Positions 34 to 8,521 of a DNA stretch of 64,000 bases are shown piece by piece. Under the pieces are notes generated by a model, which saw nothing but the letters and a program-made list of their open reading frames with translations, ran no database searches and was not told where the DNA came from. Numbering within the stretch: the first letter of the stretch is position 1; each line of letters begins with the position of its first letter. Source of the stretch: Actinobacteria bacterium HGW-Actinobacteria-7. GTDB lineage: Bacteria > Actinomycetota > Coriobacteriia > Anaerosomatales > PHET01. The stretch lies in NCBI GenBank assembly GCA_002841275.1, contig PHET01000002.1, positions 88,004-152,003 of the forward strand, given 5' to 3'. A program made the position numbers and the translations under genes.

Positions 34-1812
34 TTAAGGCAGACCCTTGAGGAGCAGATCAAAGCCATAAGACGGACCGTAACCGTACGCATCGACCGTA
101 GAGGTCACGAACGGGGACGGAGTCGAGATGAAGCTGGCCTTGTCGCCGTTCCAGTAGGAAGCGTCGCCGTGGCAGTCGATACAGACGGAGTCGAGGTTCT
201 CGGCGGTCTGTCCGCCAAGTCCACCTACGTCGGTACGCACTGCCGGAATGATCGAAGCAGCGTTCTTGTCCTCGGTAGCCCACAAGCCGAAGTTCCAGCC
301 CGGAGCGGTGGAGCCGGTGCCAGCACCGTCAGCATCGACGATGAAGCCACCGTTGGCCGTACGGGTCGCACCAGCAGCAACAGGGTTGCCCTGGAAGTCG
401 ATACCGTACAGTTCGTCCTTCAGCATGTTCGCGCCCAAGGTGCGGTGCGGGAAGCTGAAGCCGCCGTCAAGGCACTGTCCATTGATTGCAACAGAAGCGC
501 TCGACTTGAACCAAGTCTGTGAAGCATACGAGGTGAGATTAGCAACCGGCGCGGTGATCGTCGCCGTGTACGCGCCGCCAGAGTGGCAGACGTTACAGTT
601 GCTTGCGCCAGTGTGGCAGTTGCGACAGTGAGGACCGTCGTTGCTGTCAGTATCATCTACCCCATCGGACTCGATGGGCATCTGGCGTGCTCAATGGCGA
701 GGCTGTGCATCGTGGCTGTAGGCAATCACGTACGAGGTGCCATTCCACACTTCAGCCCTCTGCGTCGAAACGCCGCCGGTACCGTCGTGACAGTCAACGC
801 AGAACTCGGACAGGGCCAAGAAGCCGCCTTCGAGCTTGCCGTCGCCATCAGAATCGGCGACCTGCGGGGCGATCGGGTAGCTCTTGTCGTTGTCGTTGTT
901 CTGGCCGCCACCATAGGTGCCGTCCGCAGGTCCAAGAGGCTCATCCCAGTTGACCGCGTACTTGTTGACGCCGCCAGTCGCAGTTCCACCAACAGCAGCG
1001 ACAACGGTGTCAGCAACCGACTCCGCGTGCGGGTTCTTCAGGAGCAAGAAGCGACCCGACGGCCAGATCGGCTTGGACGCAACGGCGCCCGACGAGAACC
1101 ACTTGAGGTTGCCGTAGTTGGGGTCGATGCCCCACTCAGCAGGCGAGTTGAGCGTTCCGTCGGTGCTGGCAACCGAGACACCCGGGATATTGGGACCCGA
1201 GATGTAGCCAGCGGCGGAGGGCAGCAAGACCGCAGCGCCGGTACCCATGGAACGACCCGGGTTGGCGAACGTGGTCAGGATGCGTGCCGAGTTCCCGTGC
1301 GGGCTGTGACAGCTGAAACACGCGAAGCCGCCTTCACCGGCCGAGTAGGCGGGCTGCACGTCGGCCGGGGCGTTGCCCGTGAAGCCAAGCGTGTGGCCCG
1401 TACCGGGGCCGTTGGTACCGCTGGCAATGGCAACGGCATCATACTTGTCGCCGCCCGCAGAACCTGCAGCGTAAGCGTCGGTGCCAAACGTCGCCTCAAC
1501 GGACTGATACGCGTTGTCCATCATGACGTTGATCGTGGAGCCACCGCCACCGCCGTGACAGAAGTCACAGGCAGCCTCAGCGGTGTTCGCACGCAGCAAC
1601 TTGTAGCTACCAAAAGCATAGTGCGTTGAGTGACAGTCTTGGCACTTGTTAGTGGTAGTCGTGTAGCCACCGTGCGGACCGGAGAAGTATCCGGTCGCCT
1701 GCGTGTAGTCGCCAGTGCCCGTGGGATTGTTGTAGCCCTCTGCGAATGCCGAAGCAACCGAGAGCGCCACAATAGCCATCGCGACAAGCGCGACGGCGAT
1801 GAGCTTTCTCAT
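34..1812 (-). CDS. Secreted heptaheme c-type cytochrome with in-frame TGA (candidate selenoprotein)
   Basis: Read as one gene of 592 residues, with codon 374 a TGA at 693-691. The first part is 373 aa with a signal peptide (MRKLIAVALVAM...ASAFAEG) and four heme sites: CQDCH at about 57, CDFCH 82, CFSCH 165 and CVDCH 338. After the TGA the same frame stays open for 218 codons with three more sites: CRNCH 396, CNVCH 406 and CIDCH 544. The ATG inside the second part (681) has no Shine-Dalgarno, so a separate gene is unlikely. The start at 1812 is chosen because AAGGAGG lies 8 nt upstream; a longer start at 1857 would put 15 residues before the signal peptide. It is probably an exported electron-transfer protein. 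A nonsense mutation, for example of a Trp codon, is the alternative. Confidence 0.8.
661..693 (-). promoter_or_regulatory. SECIS-like hairpin after in-frame TGA
   Basis: On the minus strand the TGA is followed by 12 nt, then a perfect 7-bp stem CCCATCG/CGATGGG (678-672 with 667-661) closing the loop AGTC. The loop begins 19 nt after the TGA and carries a GU dinucleotide (RNA). Known bacterial SECIS elements place the apical loop about 16-37 nt after the UGA, with a G among its first two bases. The geometry is read directly from the sequence; the selenocysteine function is inferred. Confidence 0.5.
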
Positions 1813-2246: not shown

Positions 2247-3767
2247 CTAGTCTGCATCGTCGAACTTGGCGCTGTCCTCGGTTTCAGCCACCTGGGCCTT
2301 CGGCGAACCCTCGGACTCAAGCGAGTACTGAGCGAGGAAACCCTCAAGCGTGATGGTCTTCTTCTTCTCGGACTTGAATGGCTCAGCCTGAACATCGTCA
2401 GCCACCAGGAACCTCAGGCGAGGCAGAAGCAGTCTCCCGAACCTTGAGGGCGTCGCGGCCTTGATCAGGCGCTGCTCGTTGGTCAGCTCGGTCGGCTCCT
2501 CGCCTTCCTCCGGCATATCGGGCTCCGGCTCATCAAGCGCGACAAGATACTCGCCGAAACTGACGCCCTCTTCCTTCACCTTTTCATACTTGTGGAAGAC
2601 CTCGGGCAGCACATGAATCTTCGCGTACACCGCGGCGAGCATTCGTAGATCGCCTTCGGCACGTGCAGCATCCAAGAGTTCCACTGTTGCGTAGACCCGA
2701 CGCCTGCCCATCAGCAGTGCGAGCAGCAGGAGCGGCAGTGCGGCCAGTACCCACCAGATCCACGGGTTGCGCGCGAAGTAGTTGTTGTCTCCCGGGGGTA
2801 GCAGACGCACGATCTGAACGCGATCGTTGTACGTATCAGTGATTGCGAAGTAGCTGTTACCCAGCGATGCGATACCGGTCGGCAGGTAGAAGCGGCCGTC
2901 CTGGGGACCCTGCAGGTCCTTGAAGCGGTAGGTTTCCTTGCCCGTCTTCACATCCACCACAATGATGTTGTGACGGAATCCATCGAGCACGAACGCGCGG
3001 CCGCGCTCATCGACCGTCACACCGGTGGGAAGACCGAAGACGGTCGCCGTGTCGTCCTGATAACGAGGCGGCTGGCCCAGCACCCACGATACCGTCGCCG
3101 TGACGTCACCCTTCAGTGCAACTCGCTGCAGACGCGTGTTGTTGGTGTCAGCGACGATGAAGGTTCCGTCATTGAGCGGAGCGGTGGCGCGAGGATAATC
3201 GAACTGGCCCTTGTCGGGACCACGCGTACCCACTTGACGCTGGAATTCGCCCTGGGTGCTGACGAGTGCCAGCGGGCCGAAGGTGGATACCAGCACGCCG
3301 CCGTCAAAGACGGTTGGGGACAGCGGGTTCAGAATCGGACGCTCCCACAGGAACTTACCCTGCAGGTCATAGCAGAGAAGACGGAGACGCGAGCGGTCGG
3401 TCACGTAGACGTGGTTCGATGCGGGGTCTCCGTCCACGCCCACCGGAGCGAGCATCTGACCCGGCTCAAGGCCACGAGCGCCCCAGACACGCAGGGTGTC
3501 ACCGTTGCGGTTGAACGCGATGATCTTCTGGTTGTCGCGCAAGGTGACCCAGAAGTTGCCGTTGGCATCGGCGCCGATGCCAACGGGCTTCATGACATTG
3601 GTATCACCGGCTTTGTAGATTGTGCGAACGTGAATCAAGCCATCCACGCGGGGCGCCTTGGCGTCCTCGGCCTGCTGCGCCCCACCGCTGAGGAACAGAT
3701 AGAAGCCACCGAGCCCGAGCAGCAGGAGCAGACCAGCAAGAAGCAAGATGAGTGTGCGACGATTCAT
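2247..3767 (-). CDS. NHL-repeat beta-propeller membrane protein
   Basis: This 506-aa protein has an N-terminal signal anchor (residues 5-27) and an outside propeller of NHL-type repeats at about 45-325 (for example VGIGADANGNFWV, PTGVTVDERGRAFVLD and PTGIASLGNSYFAITD). A second membrane segment follows at 335-354, then an acidic cytoplasmic tail of about 150 residues. NHL propellers bind proteins or ligands, and no catalytic motif is visible. It lies 33 nt after a TPR-anchor gene and downstream of two multiheme cytochrome genes, so a scaffold or assembly role in the electron-transfer complex is plausible but inferred. A terminator follows at 2193-2220. Confidence 0.8.
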   Translation of the reverse strand: MNRRTLILLLAGLLLLLGLGGFYLFLSGGAQQAEDAKAPRVDGLIHVRTIYKAGDTNVMKPVGIGADANGNFWVTLRDNQKIIAFNRNGDTLRVWGARGLEPGQMLAPVGVDGDPASNHVYVTDRSRLRLLCYDLQGKFLWERPILNPLSPTVFDGGVLVSTFGPLALVSTQGEFQRQVGTRGPDKGQFDYPRATAPLNDGTFIVADTNNTRLQRVALKGDVTATVSWVLGQPPRYQDDTATVFGLPTGVTVDERGRAFVLDGFRHNIIVVDVKTGKETYRFKDLQGPQDGRFYLPTGIASLGNSYFAITDTYNDRVQIVRLLPPGDNNYFARNPWIWWVLAALPLLLLALLMGRRRVYATVELLDAARAEGDLRMLAAVYAKIHVLPEVFHKYEKVKEEGVSFGEYLVALDEPEPDMPEEGEEPTELTNEQRLIKAATPSRFGRLLLPRLRFLVADDVQAEPFKSEKKKTITLEGFLAQYSLESEGSPKAQVAETEDSAKFDDAD

Positions 3768-3800: not shown

Positions 3801-4496
3801 CTACTGACCGTGAGGCGATTCGGCGGGGGCGGGGATAGGAGCGCCCAGCCGCTTCAGGCCGGCAATCGCATCCTCATTGCCTGGCAGGTACTTGAGCGCC
3901 TCAGTGTACTGGGCGATGGCGCGCTTCTTCTTGTCCGCCTTCTCAAGAATCTCGCCGTAGGTGACGCGCATGTCCGCCGCCGTAGGAATAATCTTGAGGC
4001 CCTTATCCATGGTCTTGATCGCCTCGTCGTACTTCTTCTGTTCAGCTTGGATCTGAGCGAGTAGGAAGTATGGTTCGGCCGCCTTGTACTCGGTCACAAC
4101 AAGCTCACGTTCCACCGCCTTGGTGGCAATGTCGAGCTTGTTGTCCTTGATCATCAGCTGCGCATAGCGGAGCTGAATGCCGGACTCCTTCGCACCATTT
4201 GCGATGGCCTTCTCGGCGTGAGATCGAGCGTCACCCTTGCGCCCCAAATCCCATTCGGTTTCGGCGAGCGTCATCAAGAGCGCCGCGTTCTTCGGGTTGC
4301 GCTTGAGGCCATCCAGCAACAACTGGTAGTCACGTTCGGTGTCGGTCTTGGGCTCGGTGTTGAAGAGCGTACCCGTGAGCAGCAGTCCGATGATAACCGC
4401 AAGCACAACGATGAACGTTCCGAGGAACGCCCACGTGAGTACGGTCGTGCGCCGATTCGCGCGTTTTACCTTAGGAAGCGAACTTGCATCTGCCAT
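3801..4496 (-). CDS. Membrane-anchored TPR protein
   Basis: The 231-aa protein starts at the ATG at 4496 (AAAGGATG lies 7-8 nt upstream), not at an upstream start that would add 13 residues. It has a basic cytoplasmic N-terminus, one membrane segment at about 19-42, and then roughly four tetratricopeptide repeats (for example PYFLLAQIQAEQKKYDEAIKTMDKGL and AIAQYTEALKYLPGNEDAI) with a Pro-rich end. TPR domains mediate protein-protein contacts. The gene is probably co-transcribed with the NHL gene and resembles anchors found in cytochrome c maturation or export clusters. No specific function can be assigned. Confidence 0.75.
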   Translation of the reverse strand: MADASSLPKVKRANRRTTVLTWAFLGTFIVVLAVIIGLLLTGTLFNTEPKTDTERDYQLLLDGLKRNPKNAALLMTLAETEWDLGRKGDARSHAEKAIANGAKESGIQLRYAQLMIKDNKLDIATKAVERELVVTEYKAAEPYFLLAQIQAEQKKYDEAIKTMDKGLKIIPTAADMRVTYGEILEKADKKKRAIAQYTEALKYLPGNEDAIAGLKRLGAPIPAPAESPHGQ

Positions 4497-4573
4497 GAAG
4501 AGACCATCCTTTGTCGGAGCTACCGAACCCCCCACTCGCCTGATAGTTCAGCGGTGAACGTACCTGAACGCAC

Positions 4574-4607: not shown

Positions 4608-5777
4608 TTAAGGACCCGTTGGTGAGAGCATCACCTGATCGTGGCAACGTGCACAGAAGGGCTGCGAGTGACACCTGCACCCCGCGCCACCGTTTGTGGC
4701 CGTGGCGGATGTGCCGTGGATCGGGAACCACTCGGAGTACGTTCCATGCAGATTGGCGTCCTGATGACACCCGCAGGACTCGTACGAATGGGCCATCTCG
4801 TGGCACCGCACGCACAGTGCGGGATCCTTGGCTGAAAGACCCGCGTGCTGTCTGATGAACACACCAGCCGGGTGCGGCAGCTCGAGACCATGACAATCGA
4901 CACATTTCTTCTCGAGCTTGGCCGAATGACACCCTTTGCACGTGGGGAGCAGCGTGGTCTGCTTGTCAGAACCTGAAGCGACCGCCTTGTCCAGTGGCCC
5001 GTCCACATGGCAAACGTCGCAGTCCGACGCCGCGGTCCGGCCGTCATGACAGACAAGGCACCTGGACATCAAAGAACGCACCACGGGCGCCCGTCCGCGC
5101 GCGGCGGCAAGCGTGACCGTCTTGCCAGGGTCCGTATGCCCCGTGCCGCGATGACACAGCAGGCAGTCCATCCCTGCGTCGATCATCTCGGCATGGCTCA
5201 CCCGAAGACGGTTGATCTCAATCGGTTCTGTGGCGATAGCCTGGTGACATGACAGGCACCGAGAGGAGGACACGACGCCCTGGCGCGACGTGCCGCCAGA
5301 GATACGGACGACATCGATCGCACTCGCCTCCAGGGCACCTAGGAGGCCTCCGGCCGAGTGACAACCCCAGCACCCGGTCTGAGCATGTGCGCCGTTCTTC
5401 CACTGGCCCACAACATCGGTGATGGCGTGGCAGGAACCGCACGGCTTGGAGCCCGTGGCGGTATACGGTGCGAGGGCGATCAGCGGCAACGCGAGGAGCA
5501 GTACCAGCAACCACAAACGCATGAGGTACAGCCGCCGGGCCCGACGTGGATCGAATCCGAGCCTCCTGCGGGCGGCGGCCGCGTTCACGCCGTCCGCGAT
5601 GGCGAAGAATGCAAGCACTAGGAGCATGAAGCCCAATGCCACGACTGCGGCGATCAGCATCGATTCCCGCGGGTAGGCGCGAGGGTCCTCGGCGATCTTG
5701 GGCAGCTGAGTGGACAACGCTCGCCAGCCCGCCAGGATACGGTCCAGACCCTCCCACATGGTTTCCGAGAAACTCAC
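4608..5777 (-). CDS. Membrane multiheme c-type cytochrome (10 CXXCH plus two CXCH)
   Basis: The 389-aa protein has two membrane segments (about 40-63 and 84-104), followed by an outside domain full of heme sites from residue 113. There are ten canonical CXXCH motifs (CGSCH, CWGCH, CLSCH, CLLCH, CLVCH, CDVCH, CKGCH, CVDCH, CVRCH, CARCH). Two unusual CXCH motifs (CGCH and CRCH) lie near the C-terminus. It probably relays electrons between the membrane quinone pool or inner cytochromes and outer acceptors. Its start overlaps the stop of the next cytochrome gene by 4 nt, so the two are translationally coupled. It does not match a named family I recognise. Confidence 0.85.
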   Translation of the reverse strand: MSFSETMWEGLDRILAGWRALSTQLPKIAEDPRAYPRESMLIAAVVALGFMLLVLAFFAIADGVNAAAARRRLGFDPRRARRLYLMRLWLLVLLLALPLIALAPYTATGSKPCGSCHAITDVVGQWKNGAHAQTGCWGCHSAGGLLGALEASAIDVVRISGGTSRQGVVSSSRCLSCHQAIATEPIEINRLRVSHAEMIDAGMDCLLCHRGTGHTDPGKTVTLAAARGRAPVVRSLMSRCLVCHDGRTAASDCDVCHVDGPLDKAVASGSDKQTTLLPTCKGCHSAKLEKKCVDCHGLELPHPAGVFIRQHAGLSAKDPALCVRCHEMAHSYESCGCHQDANLHGTYSEWFPIHGTSATATNGGAGCRCHSQPFCARCHDQVMLSPTGP

Positions 5778-6772
5778 TGCCCATCACCATGCCCCATGCC
5801 CACACCCGGGAGATCCGGATGAGCGGATCGCAGGTGGCAGTCGTCACAACCGGCCTGAGCATGGCACCGTGCGCAGGCTTCCTTGCCCGCAGACGTGGCC
5901 AGCTGCCCATGGTCAGGGAGGAACGAAGGCGGGTGCGGCATGTCGATACCGTGGCAGGTGTCGCACCAAGTGGGCTCGTGACAGGTTGTGCACTTCTCAC
6001 GCGTCTTGCTGGTGAGTCCGTGACCGTGGACCACGGACCAGTCACTGGTGTGTGGCAAAGGCGTGCCGTGACATTCAACACAGAAGTCGGCTGCGTGACA
6101 CGTACTGCAGGTCTGCAGCTCGCCGAGCCCGTGGGTCGACTTCCACTCCGGACCGTGGGTCACGCGCCATGAAGTATCGGTATCACGCCTCTCCCGCTGG
6201 CTCTGCGTGGAATGGCACATCGTGCAACCGGACACCTCTTGGGCCGATGCTGTGTGGCAGGACATGCACGCGTCCATCTCAGGTAGGGCATATCGACGGT
6301 TCTCAACCACATGCCCAACCCCGCCATGGCACTCACTGCATGCCTTTTCGATGAAGTCGGCGTGCTGGACACGAATTCCGCGCGCGACACTCACTCCAGC
6401 GCGGATCCTGGAATGGCACTTCAGACACGCAGTGTCATCGACGGTGGTGACCTGTGGCACCACGCGAAACACCGAGCGCAGTGCACGGCGCTGCAGCGCT
6501 ATTCCGTCCGGCAATATGCCCAGACGCCCAGACGTCATGTGGCAGACGATGCACTTCACCGAAGGGTGGGCGCTGTCGACTGCGAGAGCCGCATACGGCT
6601 CCATGGTATGGCAGGAGGTGCACAGGTCGTGTGTTCGGGTGAGCGCTCCCAGACCGGCGGTCAGTGCAACCCATACAACGATGAAGACCAGTGAGATGGT
6701 CACTCCCCGCCCGACGGCACGGCGACGCCGCACAGCGCTTCGCCTCTCAACGCCTGGCAGTCCACGACTCAC
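5774..6772 (-). CDS. NapC/NirT-like dodecaheme membrane cytochrome
   Basis: The 332-aa protein has one N-terminal membrane anchor (about 24-44), and the first heme site CTSCH follows immediately at residue 51. That is the arrangement of NapC/NirT/NrfH quinol dehydrogenases (CTSCHTMEPY...HPSVKCIVCHM). It has twelve CXXCH motifs, far more than the four of NrfH, so it looks like a NapC-type head extended by a decorated multiheme wire. The likely role is taking electrons from menaquinol and passing them outward through the overlapping cytochrome gene downstream. It overlaps an O-antigen-ligase-like gene by 4 nt on its upstream side. Confidence 0.85.
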   Translation of the reverse strand: MSRGLPGVERRSAVRRRRAVGRGVTISLVFIVVWVALTAGLGALTRTHDLCTSCHTMEPYAALAVDSAHPSVKCIVCHMTSGRLGILPDGIALQRRALRSVFRVVPQVTTVDDTACLKCHSRIRAGVSVARGIRVQHADFIEKACSECHGGVGHVVENRRYALPEMDACMSCHTASAQEVSGCTMCHSTQSQRERRDTDTSWRVTHGPEWKSTHGLGELQTCSTCHAADFCVECHGTPLPHTSDWSVVHGHGLTSKTREKCTTCHEPTWCDTCHGIDMPHPPSFLPDHGQLATSAGKEACARCHAQAGCDDCHLRSAHPDLPGVGMGHGDGQ

Positions 6773-8505
6773 GGAGTAGGCCCTCTCTCGGCCGCCTCTT
6801 GCAGCCGTACCAGATCACGTTGCATAGATGCCGCTTCTTCGTTGCGATTCGCAGCGTAGAGTAGTTGTACAGCCTCCGCGCGGACTTCGATGCCTAGCGG
6901 GTAGAGTTCCACAGAACGAACATAAGCATCCGCGACCTCAGACGCTGGCCGATTCAGTCCGCGAAGCGTTCGCGCCCGTGCAAGCGCGAGATCGTAGGAG
7001 TCCGGCTCGAAGGACAACCCAACATCGATCGACCTCAGTGCGTCATCCAGGTTCGCACCGCCCAGGTACAACGCTGCGTCGGCCTCTGCGACACGGAACG
7101 TGTCAACGATTGGCACCAGACGTTCCGCAGCATGATGTTCACGAACGGCGACCTCCAACTGACCAGCCGCAAACTGTTCGAGCCCGCGAAAATAGTCGCC
7201 ATCGGCCACCAGATAGACGCCGCTGGCCAGCATTATGCAACCGCCAGCGAGCGTCAGGATCGCACGCGCCCACACCGGAAGTGCGGTGCCCGAATCCGAA
7301 CGATGGTCTCGCCCGCCTGACCCCACAACGCTGCGAGAGACCGCGATCCCCCCCAAAGTCCACGCGAGCACGCCGGTCTCGACGGTCGTGATACCGAACA
7401 CACCCTGGCCTGCCGCTGCGCACAGACCAACGAAAGCAACGAAGGCCACACCGTCCTTGGCCCGCGCTGCACGAGCGCCTCTGGTCACGGCCAGACCTAG
7501 GAGCGCGAGCAACAACAGCGCAGCCGGTATGCCAGACTCGGCAGCAACCTGCAGCAGTTCACTGTGGGCCTGATCGGCCCTCACATCGCCGTACTCCAGC
7601 GCCGCGCGCTGGAAGGGTTCGTAGCGAGGGAATTCGTAGAGGAACCGGCCTGGACCGACCCCTACGACCGGGTGGGCCGCAATCAGCCGGCCGCTTCCCC
7701 TCCAGATCTGCCACCTACTGGCGGCCGAACCGCTGGAAAGGCTCGACGGATCGAGCTTGGAGAGCGCGGCTGGCCCACCAAGGAGCGCCGCGCCGATGAG
7801 GGCCCCAGCCGCAACCGCCGAAAGGATTGCCCAGCTTCTGCGCGACCGAAGCACGAACGCCGCCGCCAGCACCGCCACGGCCAGTCCGAACCACGCTCCG
7901 CGCGAGCCACTCATCCCAACCCCCAGCGCGGCAAACGCGGCGGCGACGCCGAGCAGAACGCGCTTGCGCCCAGACGAGACGATTGCCGCCGCCAGCACGG
8001 TCGACGTCGCGATTGCCAGCCAACCACCAGCAAGAACCTGGTTGCCCATGGTTGAAGCGGGAACCGCGCCGAGCAGCCGCTGGAACACGATGACAACGCT
8101 GTGCACGCTCGCAACCGTAGCGAGCGGCCAGACCAGCGCGAAGACGTTGCGCCGGAATGCGATCACCCCGACGGCCCCCGCGCACAGATACAACGCCCCT
8201 GCGACAAGACCCTGGAAGCGTCCATGAACGCCGAAGACCGACGACGCCAGACCGCCCGTGATGGCGGCCACGAGATACGTCGCGGCCAGTGCGCCAGCGA
8301 GAATCGCCGGCACCCGCAGACCGGCGCTGATTCTTCGCCTGCCCAGCACAATCCCCGCGAGCGCCACCACACACCCCGCAACGAGGGCGCGCACTGGCTG
8401 GTATGGGTCCGCCGCGGCCGGCAGCATAATGAGGGAGAGACCAACGAACACGGTTCCTAACAGAAACTCCATCGTGCTAGGCTGGTCTAAGTTTGTTAAT
8501 CGCAT
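6769..8505 (-). CDS. O-antigen ligase-like membrane protein with TPR tail
   Basis: A roughly 578-aa polytopic protein with about ten or more membrane segments and a Wzy/WaaL-family core (SASRWQIWRGSGRLIAAHPVVGVGPGRF, then the outside loop ending HSELLQVAAESG). A last membrane segment is followed by a TPR-like domain of about 120 residues at the C-terminus. Family members polymerise or transfer undecaprenyl-linked glycans to lipid or protein outside the membrane. Starts TTG 8514, GTG 8508 and ATG 8505 are all possible and none has a good ribosome site; ATG is chosen. Its stop overlaps the NapC-like cytochrome start by 4 nt, tying a glycan transferase to cytochromes. Confidence 0.75.
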   Translation of the reverse strand: MRLTNLDQPSTMEFLLGTVFVGLSLIMLPAAADPYQPVRALVAGCVVALAGIVLGRRRISAGLRVPAILAGALAATYLVAAITGGLASSVFGVHGRFQGLVAGALYLCAGAVGVIAFRRNVFALVWPLATVASVHSVVIVFQRLLGAVPASTMGNQVLAGGWLAIATSTVLAAAIVSSGRKRVLLGVAAAFAALGVGMSGSRGAWFGLAVAVLAAAFVLRSRRSWAILSAVAAGALIGAALLGGPAALSKLDPSSLSSGSAASRWQIWRGSGRLIAAHPVVGVGPGRFLYEFPRYEPFQRAALEYGDVRADQAHSELLQVAAESGIPAALLLLALLGLAVTRGARAARAKDGVAFVAFVGLCAAAGQGVFGITTVETGVLAWTLGGIAVSRSVVGSGGRDHRSDSGTALPVWARAILTLAGGCIMLASGVYLVADGDYFRGLEQFAAGQLEVAVREHHAAERLVPIVDTFRVAEADAALYLGGANLDDALRSIDVGLSFEPDSYDLALARARTLRGLNRPASEVADAYVRSVELYPLGIEVRAEAVQLLYAANRNEEAASMQRDLVRLQEAAERGPTP

Positions 8506-8521
8506 CACAATCAACGATAAG
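8493..8521 (+). promoter_or_regulatory. Candidate promoter for lipoprotein gene
   Basis: TTGTTA (8493-8498), a 17-nt spacer and GATAAG (8516-8521) precede the GTG start at 8601 by about 80 nt. The element overlaps the 5' end of the divergent ligase-like gene. Confidence 0.35.

Follow-up and report, generated by a model that had tools for sequence, protein, structure and literature searches.

The question raised by this locus, which lies on the minus strand of the 64-kb stretch of DNA that was analysed (hereafter the window), is whether the single TGA codon inside a multiheme cytochrome gene ends the protein or encodes selenocysteine (Sec). A first-pass annotation had described a seven-heme cytochrome split by an in-frame TGA at 693-691, and both the reading frame and the CXXCH count bear this out: from 1812 to 34 (minus strand) the frame is open except for this one codon, with four CXXCH motifs upstream of it, and downstream there follow 218 codons with three CXXCH motifs and then TAA. 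The remark that the internal ATG has no ribosome site was also correct, as no Shine-Dalgarno-like sequence is seen by eye before the ATG at 681; such a stretch does precede both candidate starts of the gene, ATG 1812 and ATG 1857 (by eye). The features of the gene are as follows.

34..1812, minus strand: gene for a seven-heme cytochrome with one TGA predicted to be read through; 592 residues with Sec374, TAA stop at 34-36, full-length homologues
1741..1812, minus strand: predicted signal peptide, residues 1-24, cleavage placed by eye after AFA
1630..1644, minus strand: CXXCH heme site 1 (C57), from sequence and alignment
1555..1569, minus strand: CXXCH heme site 2 (C82), from sequence and alignment
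1306..1320, minus strand: CXXCH heme site 3 (C165), from sequence and alignment
787..801, minus strand: CXXCH heme site 4 (C338), the last one before the TGA, from sequence and alignment
712..714, minus strand: His367 of an HD motif, seven residues ahead of Sec374 and a candidate for the distal ligand of a heme, present in 87 of the 87 listed homologues covering the site
691..693, minus strand: in-frame TGA, predicted Sec374 in an RHU motif, codon shared by 24 loci
661..678, minus strand: SECIS-like hairpin, stem 678-672 / 667-661, loop AGTC at 671-668
613..627, minus strand: CXXCH heme site 5 (C396), the first one after the TGA, from sequence and alignment
583..597, minus strand: CXXCH heme site 6 (C406), from sequence and alignment
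472..474, minus strand: Cys447, the sole other non-heme Cys/Sec residue, present in 87 of 87 listed homologues and 22 of 22 aligned members
169..183, minus strand: CXXCH heme site 7 (C544), from sequence and alignment

Since TGA is also the terminator of 16 of the 41 other mechanically listed open reading frames of at least 250 aa in the window, the genetic code overall looks unchanged, and a recoded genetic code was ruled out on this ground. Across two Actinomycetota lineages, 21 genomes carry this TGA at the identical codon in a total of 24 loci, all of which read RH-TGA-(A/S/G)R; this speaks against a base-call error in one assembly, and assembly error was ruled out as an explanation. In the order of the window's organism the gene family was found in 16 of 69 genomes (E <= 1e-40), 15 of which carry one TGA at this codon; in the sixteenth (G135) the contig runs out before the site is reached. 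A phylum-wide search, in which 396 genomes were drawn and 13 gave a match at E <= 1e-30, detected the same TGA outside the class in six genomes (nine loci), and the named relatives in this second lineage include Candidatus Aquicultor.

Homologous proteins were taken from three protein-database searches, each of which scored only about 8,000 candidates sharing most words; the best 120 of 147, the best 120 of 144 and 89 of 89 matches gave 210 different proteins, including P0002 and P0054 of the window's own genome and some from genomes that also contributed to the 24 loci. It should be noted that 121 of these 210 listed homologues end one residue before the TGA site, at ...RH, as is expected where gene finders stop at a TGA; the codon itself was seen behind those shortened proteins for which the DNA was examined. 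Two further listed proteins do not reach the site. Among the 87 that cover it, the residue at the Sec position is Cys in 67, Tyr in five, Arg and Ser in three each, His and Asp in two each, and Leu, Gly, Phe, Thr and Ala in one each, and it is Trp in none. An alignment of homologues had been proposed for distinguishing Sec from a nonsense change, and with Cys in 67 and Trp in 0 of the 87 listed homologues it favours Sec. The presence of Tyr, Arg, Ser, His, Asp and other residues in some homologues indicates that a selenolate or thiolate is not required in every member of the family.

The hairpin that follows the TGA was found exactly as the first-pass annotation gave it, a perfect 7-bp stem with an AGTC loop that starts 19 nt past the codon. 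Taken by itself it is not striking: the 61-nt single-sequence fold has a z of -0.40, a 7-bp stem arises in about 2% of cases when this gene is recoded synonymously, and over 12 sequences the corresponding fractions are modest (0.02 to 0.83). As single-sequence folding was uninformative and the recoding result modest, a joint test was relied on, comprising 21 sequences in four hairpin classes (the 24 loci less the near-duplicates L030, L033, and L092). In this test 148 of 154 pair positions, which were picked on the same sequences as were tested, are occupied by standard pairs, as compared to a mean of 94.7 and a maximum of 109 in 5,000 draws in which the codons of the same genes were redrawn synonymously. 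The stem thus covaries across homologues, which had been named as a check on the Sec reading. The loop starts 19 nt after the TGA in this gene and six others, 22 nt after it in five sequences, 23 nt after it in eight second-lineage sequences, where the stem has a bulged base, and 18 nt after it in one odd form. Compensatory changes are seen in each of the three main classes; 3 of 64 pair positions are unpaired in class C, the hairpins of L038 and L064 need a bulge or contain mismatches, and the single-sequence class (L035) is not significant by itself (602 of 5,000 draws). As a control, nine loci of the Cys form were scored at the same pair positions. The three from the organism's order form at most four of seven class-A pairs and at most three of seven class-B pairs. 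Of the six from outside the order, L083, L084, and L085 form 6 of 8 class-C pairs (recoding mean 5.2), and L085 and L086 form 6 of 7 class-A pairs (recoding mean 4.0), so the control is clean inside the order and separates less well outside it, where Cys loci lie near or above the recoding means. The class-C pairing of L083, L084, and L085 could possibly be a remnant left after a change from Sec to Cys, or chance. The distance and loop of the hairpins in this family appear to fit the bSECISearch rules for bacterial SECIS elements, and the classes would provide several natural SECIS elements within a single gene family.

A search of the genome for selA, selB, selD and tRNA-Sec had likewise been proposed, and all four are present. 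The assembly (2.53 Mb in 38 contigs, listed as 100% complete) contains selA (595.8 bits), selB (317.1 bits, above the cut-off), selD (371.7 bits), which bears an in-frame TGA of its own, and a tRNA-Sec (69.3 bits) to which ARAGORN assigns the anticodon TCA. The selB gene extends beyond contig C34, and the end of C2 carries its C-terminal part; these contig ends overlap by 79 bases within selB, and the tRNA-Sec is located nearby on C2. It appears that selD, selA, selB, and the tRNA-Sec form a single cluster split by an assembly gap (L099, L100). The TGA of selD (L018, C34:29881-30807) stands in the context AG-TGA-AAKWG and is followed by a hairpin, the apical part of which (GUCC-GGA-GGAU) is close to the AUCC-GGA-GGAU of the second-lineage cytochromes. 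Second SelB-like elongation factors scoring about 200 bits (the selB cut-off being 242) were also observed, at C18:60645-61523 (L002) in this genome, on G522:C42 and on G441:C5, with G441 having two. Among the 21 genomes with the TGA form, selB was found in 19 (14 of 15 in the order and five of six in the second lineage), the two genomes in which it was not found being G111 (82% complete) and G723 (77% complete). Across the order, selB occurs in 51 of 69 genomes and in 37 of the 54 other than the TGA-form genomes, so that its presence discriminates little.

Interchange of Sec and Cys on a tree is the usual mark of Sec/Cys pairs. In a tree of 99 rows (19 Sec, 62 Cys, and 18 other) the Sec label requires at least seven changes, four of which are forced by branches with an SH-aLRT of at least 95 as obtained with a quick method. 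It was built without the Sec loci L030, L033, L040, L064, and L087, without homologues shorter than 540 aa and without proteins that end at the TGA, and L043 forms a long branch in it. The genome of the window itself holds both the Sec form and, on contig C17, a Cys paralogue:

C17:29431-31656: Cys paralogue P0054 (L065), 744 aa, no stop

Cys paralogues are also present in two other genomes of the order, G111 and G079. No NHL protein, TPR protein or partner cytochrome was found near the paralogue in the surrounding 19.5 kb. Natural Sec, Cys, and Tyr versions of the protein, two of them (Sec and Cys) in one genome, would provide a ready comparison for the effect of selenium near a heme.

We consider, with a probability of about 0.9, that the product of the gene is a cytochrome with seven c-type heme motifs, predicted to be exported, and that the in-frame TGA would be translated as Sec under the direction of the predicted hairpin. 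Sec decoding of the in-frame TGA is very likely on this comparative evidence, namely the shared TGA, homologues with Cys and not Trp, the covarying hairpin, the Sec genes, and the interchange of Sec and Cys. The UGA would be read by the tRNA-Sec, which SelB would carry and the hairpin would hold in place, and the full-length protein would be exported, with heme attached at all seven CXXCH sites. If the TGA were instead a true stop the product would be a four-heme cytochrome, and the 218 codons behind it a remnant or a second gene starting from ATG 681. This would agree with the 121 of 210 listed database proteins that stop at this point and with the regular use of TGA as a terminator in the rest of the window, but the downstream frame with its three CXXCH motifs, ending in TAA or TAG, is present in 19 of the 21 loci in which it was examined (the 24 without L030, L033, and L064), the two exceptions being L087, which is apparently frameshifted, and L040, which is cut by a contig end. 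It also diverges like the upstream part: in ten pairwise comparisons of these loci with this gene, identity is 55-70% before the TGA and 53-64% after it, and on both sides third codon positions differ by 0.43-0.58 vs. 0.21-0.35 for first and second positions. Furthermore, homologues without the TGA read straight through, neither TAA nor TAG was seen at the codon in the 24 loci, and ATG 681 lacks a ribosome site. Termination at the TGA is thus highly improbable, and a split gene or pseudogene was rejected given the conservation of the frame past the TGA and the lack of a ribosome site at ATG 681. Leaky reading of the UGA by a near-cognate tRNA such as that for Trp, which would need no selenium and would yield a regulated mixture of four- and seven-heme proteins, would likewise keep the downstream frame conserved, and a hairpin can favour readthrough in general. 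Against this stand the residues at the site in the 87 listed homologues (Cys in 67, Trp in none), the full Sec apparatus in the genome and the apparent fit of the hairpin distance and loop to the bacterial SECIS rules; we regard such readthrough as a very improbable explanation, and suppression by Trp in particular was rejected because none of the 87 listed homologues covering the site has Trp there.

The predicted Sec cytochrome lies downstream of, and in the same direction as, genes for an NHL-repeat protein, a TPR protein, and two NapC/NirT-like cytochromes.

2247..3767, minus strand: NHL-repeat protein, conserved neighbour (PF01436; synteny)
3801..4535, minus strand: TPR protein, weakly CcmH/CycH-like (40.5 bits, cut-off 42; synteny)
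4608..5777, minus strand: multiheme cytochrome, Cytochrome_C7 / NapC-NirT-like, conserved neighbour (profile match; synteny)
5774..6772, minus strand: multiheme cytochrome, NapC-NirT-like, conserved neighbour (NrfH model, 31.7 bits, below the cut-off; synteny)
6769..8514, minus strand: O-antigen-ligase-like protein (Wzy_C), adjacent in some of the genomes (profile match; neighbourhood comparison)

This order of genes is kept in all nine of the other Coriobacteriia stretches compared (L102-L109 and L113), which stand for nine of the 14 remaining genomes of the order that have the TGA form, and in one of three second-lineage stretches (L111). The O-antigen-ligase-like gene precedes the cluster in six of the nine Coriobacteriia stretches, and a TIGR04190 radical SAM protein, ubiE, and a deaminase lie downstream in seven of the nine, L113 ending too early. 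The TIGR04190 protein, of the B12-binding/radical SAM type and located downstream of the gene at L067 7937-9769, was also observed downstream of the Cys paralogue in G079 and G111. The conserved cluster points to extracellular electron transfer. The predicted Sec cytochrome would act at the outer end of an electron-transfer chain, as its terminal carrier, with the two NapC/NirT-like cytochromes of the same cluster forming the start of the chain, and Sec decoding would link selenium supply to a gene cluster resembling those of extracellular electron transfer. One paper reports multiheme cytochrome counts of 18 and 17 for two isolates of the order and names thiosulfate, sulfur or Fe(III) as their electron acceptors (PMC9686372); a term search of its accessible text returned no word starting with "seleno".

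As to what the Sec residue may do, 22 aligned members share seven CXXCH motifs and only six other conserved His residues (47, 64, 140, 172, 367, and 456), which may leave one of the hemes with a ligand site that is open or unusual. A tentative possibility, which we hold to be less probable than its absence but the likeliest of the specific roles graded here, is that Sec374 is a redox-active selenolate beside a heme. Positioned seven residues past His367, it would pass electrons from the heme with the open site to a two-electron acceptor or, alternatively, would shield that site from oxidation; the Cys of the sister forms may do the same job less well. A peroxide-protecting role may also be envisaged. 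It should be noted that His373 precedes Sec in all 24 loci but precedes Cys in just 29 of 67 homologues. This residue may be tied to the chemistry of Sec or, in the Sec forms, may supply the seventh ligand that is missing, and if His373 is itself the seventh distal ligand the argument for an open heme site would fall.

Direct ligation of the seventh heme by Sec374 would account for the shortage of conserved His in the 22 aligned members, and Cys, Tyr, and His, which are possible heme ligands, occupy the site in 74 of the 87 listed non-Sec forms. The occurrence of Arg, Ser, Asp, Leu, Gly, Phe, Thr, and Ala at the site does not fit such a role, His373 is present in all 24 Sec loci, and Cys447, found in 87 of 87 listed homologues, would be a better candidate for the seventh ligand, so that we think axial ligation by Sec improbable. 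Slightly less doubtful, though still unlikely, is a selenylsulfide between Sec374 and Cys447 acting as a redox switch of the heme chain; positions 374 and 447 are the only non-heme Cys/Sec residues of this protein, but Cys447 is kept in 87 of 87 listed homologues, even those without Cys at 374, and the two residues thus do not co-vary. The AlphaFold2 models were poor (mean pLDDT of 53 with 72 rows and 42 with 60 rows), a Foldseek comparison of the better, but still poor, model (mean pLDDT 53) with the PDB gave nothing at E <= 0.001, and sequence and profile searches of solved structures yielded no significant match. Beyond the redox-active selenolate, one could imagine an extracellular wire of cytochromes in Actinomycetota of which the protein is the subunit or the cap, with one selenolate per seven hemes and the selenium bound to or stacked on a heme, an arrangement that we put forward as improbable. 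It would, if true, amount to a selenium-tuned outlet of an electron-transfer chain and a natural selenocysteine-heme site.

The first-pass annotation had suggested that Sec near hemes would be a new cofactor arrangement for a cytochrome. The Sec reading is supported, but the claim of a new arrangement was too strong, since ExtKL, a multiheme cytochrome, is already listed as a selenoprotein and MccSep bears the name of one. The accessible part of a 2026 inventory records 119 prokaryotic selenoprotein families or subfamilies, which include ExtKL (NF040886), an octaheme cytochrome (TIGR04315) and NF041027, a CXXCH-containing barrel protein (PMC13188914). In Geobacter, according to the available text, ExtKL is a five-heme selenoprotein candidate that is more abundant with Fe(III) (PMC5877670). 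Like ExtKL (model NF040886, cyt_C_like_Sec), as far as it is described in these sources, the protein studied here is of the multiheme c-type, has one predicted Sec and is encoded together with other multiheme cytochromes; unlike ExtKL, for which five hemes are given, it has seven heme motifs, and NF040886 (cut-off 250 bits) gave no listed match in five family proteins at E <= 0.1 or in 60 at E <= 0.001. The octaheme tetrathionate reductase family cytochrome (TIGR04315) is likewise listed in the accessible inventory text as a multiheme protein with a Sec member (PMC13188914), but it has eight hemes as compared to seven CXXCH motifs here, and its model gave no listed match in the same numbers of family proteins at the same thresholds (5 at E <= 0.1 and 60 at E <= 0.001). 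NF041027 was not among the listed matches to this protein or to the 60 relatives scanned. The PDB entries 9wt8, 9wt9, 9wta, 9wtb, and 9wtc bear the molecule name "Multiheme cytochrome c selenoprotein (MccSep)", one of them with U325A, a mutant which indicates that proteins of this kind have already been handled experimentally. Judged by these molecule names MccSep is similar in being a multiheme cytochrome c named a selenoprotein, but its match to family member P0037 (12.8 bits, E = 0.47, 51 residues) is not significant, and it was not among the matches to full-length P0001 or to three family profiles; no paper on MccSep was found in the open literature.

In Geoalkalibacter, one locus is reported to combine two NHL proteins with an OmcE homologue and a putative quinol cytochrome (PMC12016550). 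Like the genes of the OmcE/OmcS nanowires, the gene studied here encodes a multiheme cytochrome with predicted export and lies next to genes for NapC/NirT-like cytochromes and an NHL protein; it differs from them in having seven heme motifs. Weak profile hits to 7tfs, which we take to be OmcE (E = 0.56, at the motif FCxxCHDGAxG), and to 9yuq (E = 0.51) are not significant. Sec-containing multiheme cytochromes are thus a known kind, and the present family, which matches none of the ExtKL, TIGR04315, and NF041027 models and matches MccSep at only E = 0.47, would be a new family within the sources readable to us. No description of it was found in the open literature, by which we do not claim its absence from print, and searching the main text of deep-Sep by term gave no hit for cytochromes. 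As 121 of the 210 listed homologues are stored as proteins ending at the TGA, what is likely a seven-heme electron carrier of Actinomycetota has so far appeared as no more than its four-heme part. The recurrence of the TGA and of the predicted hairpin in relatives from two bacterial groups suggests that a family of selenium-containing, exported electron carriers has been overlooked. The sole NF040886 match in the window's genome is at C1:137341-138153 (L101), where it scores 47.5 bits and lies in a 535-aa frame without a stop.
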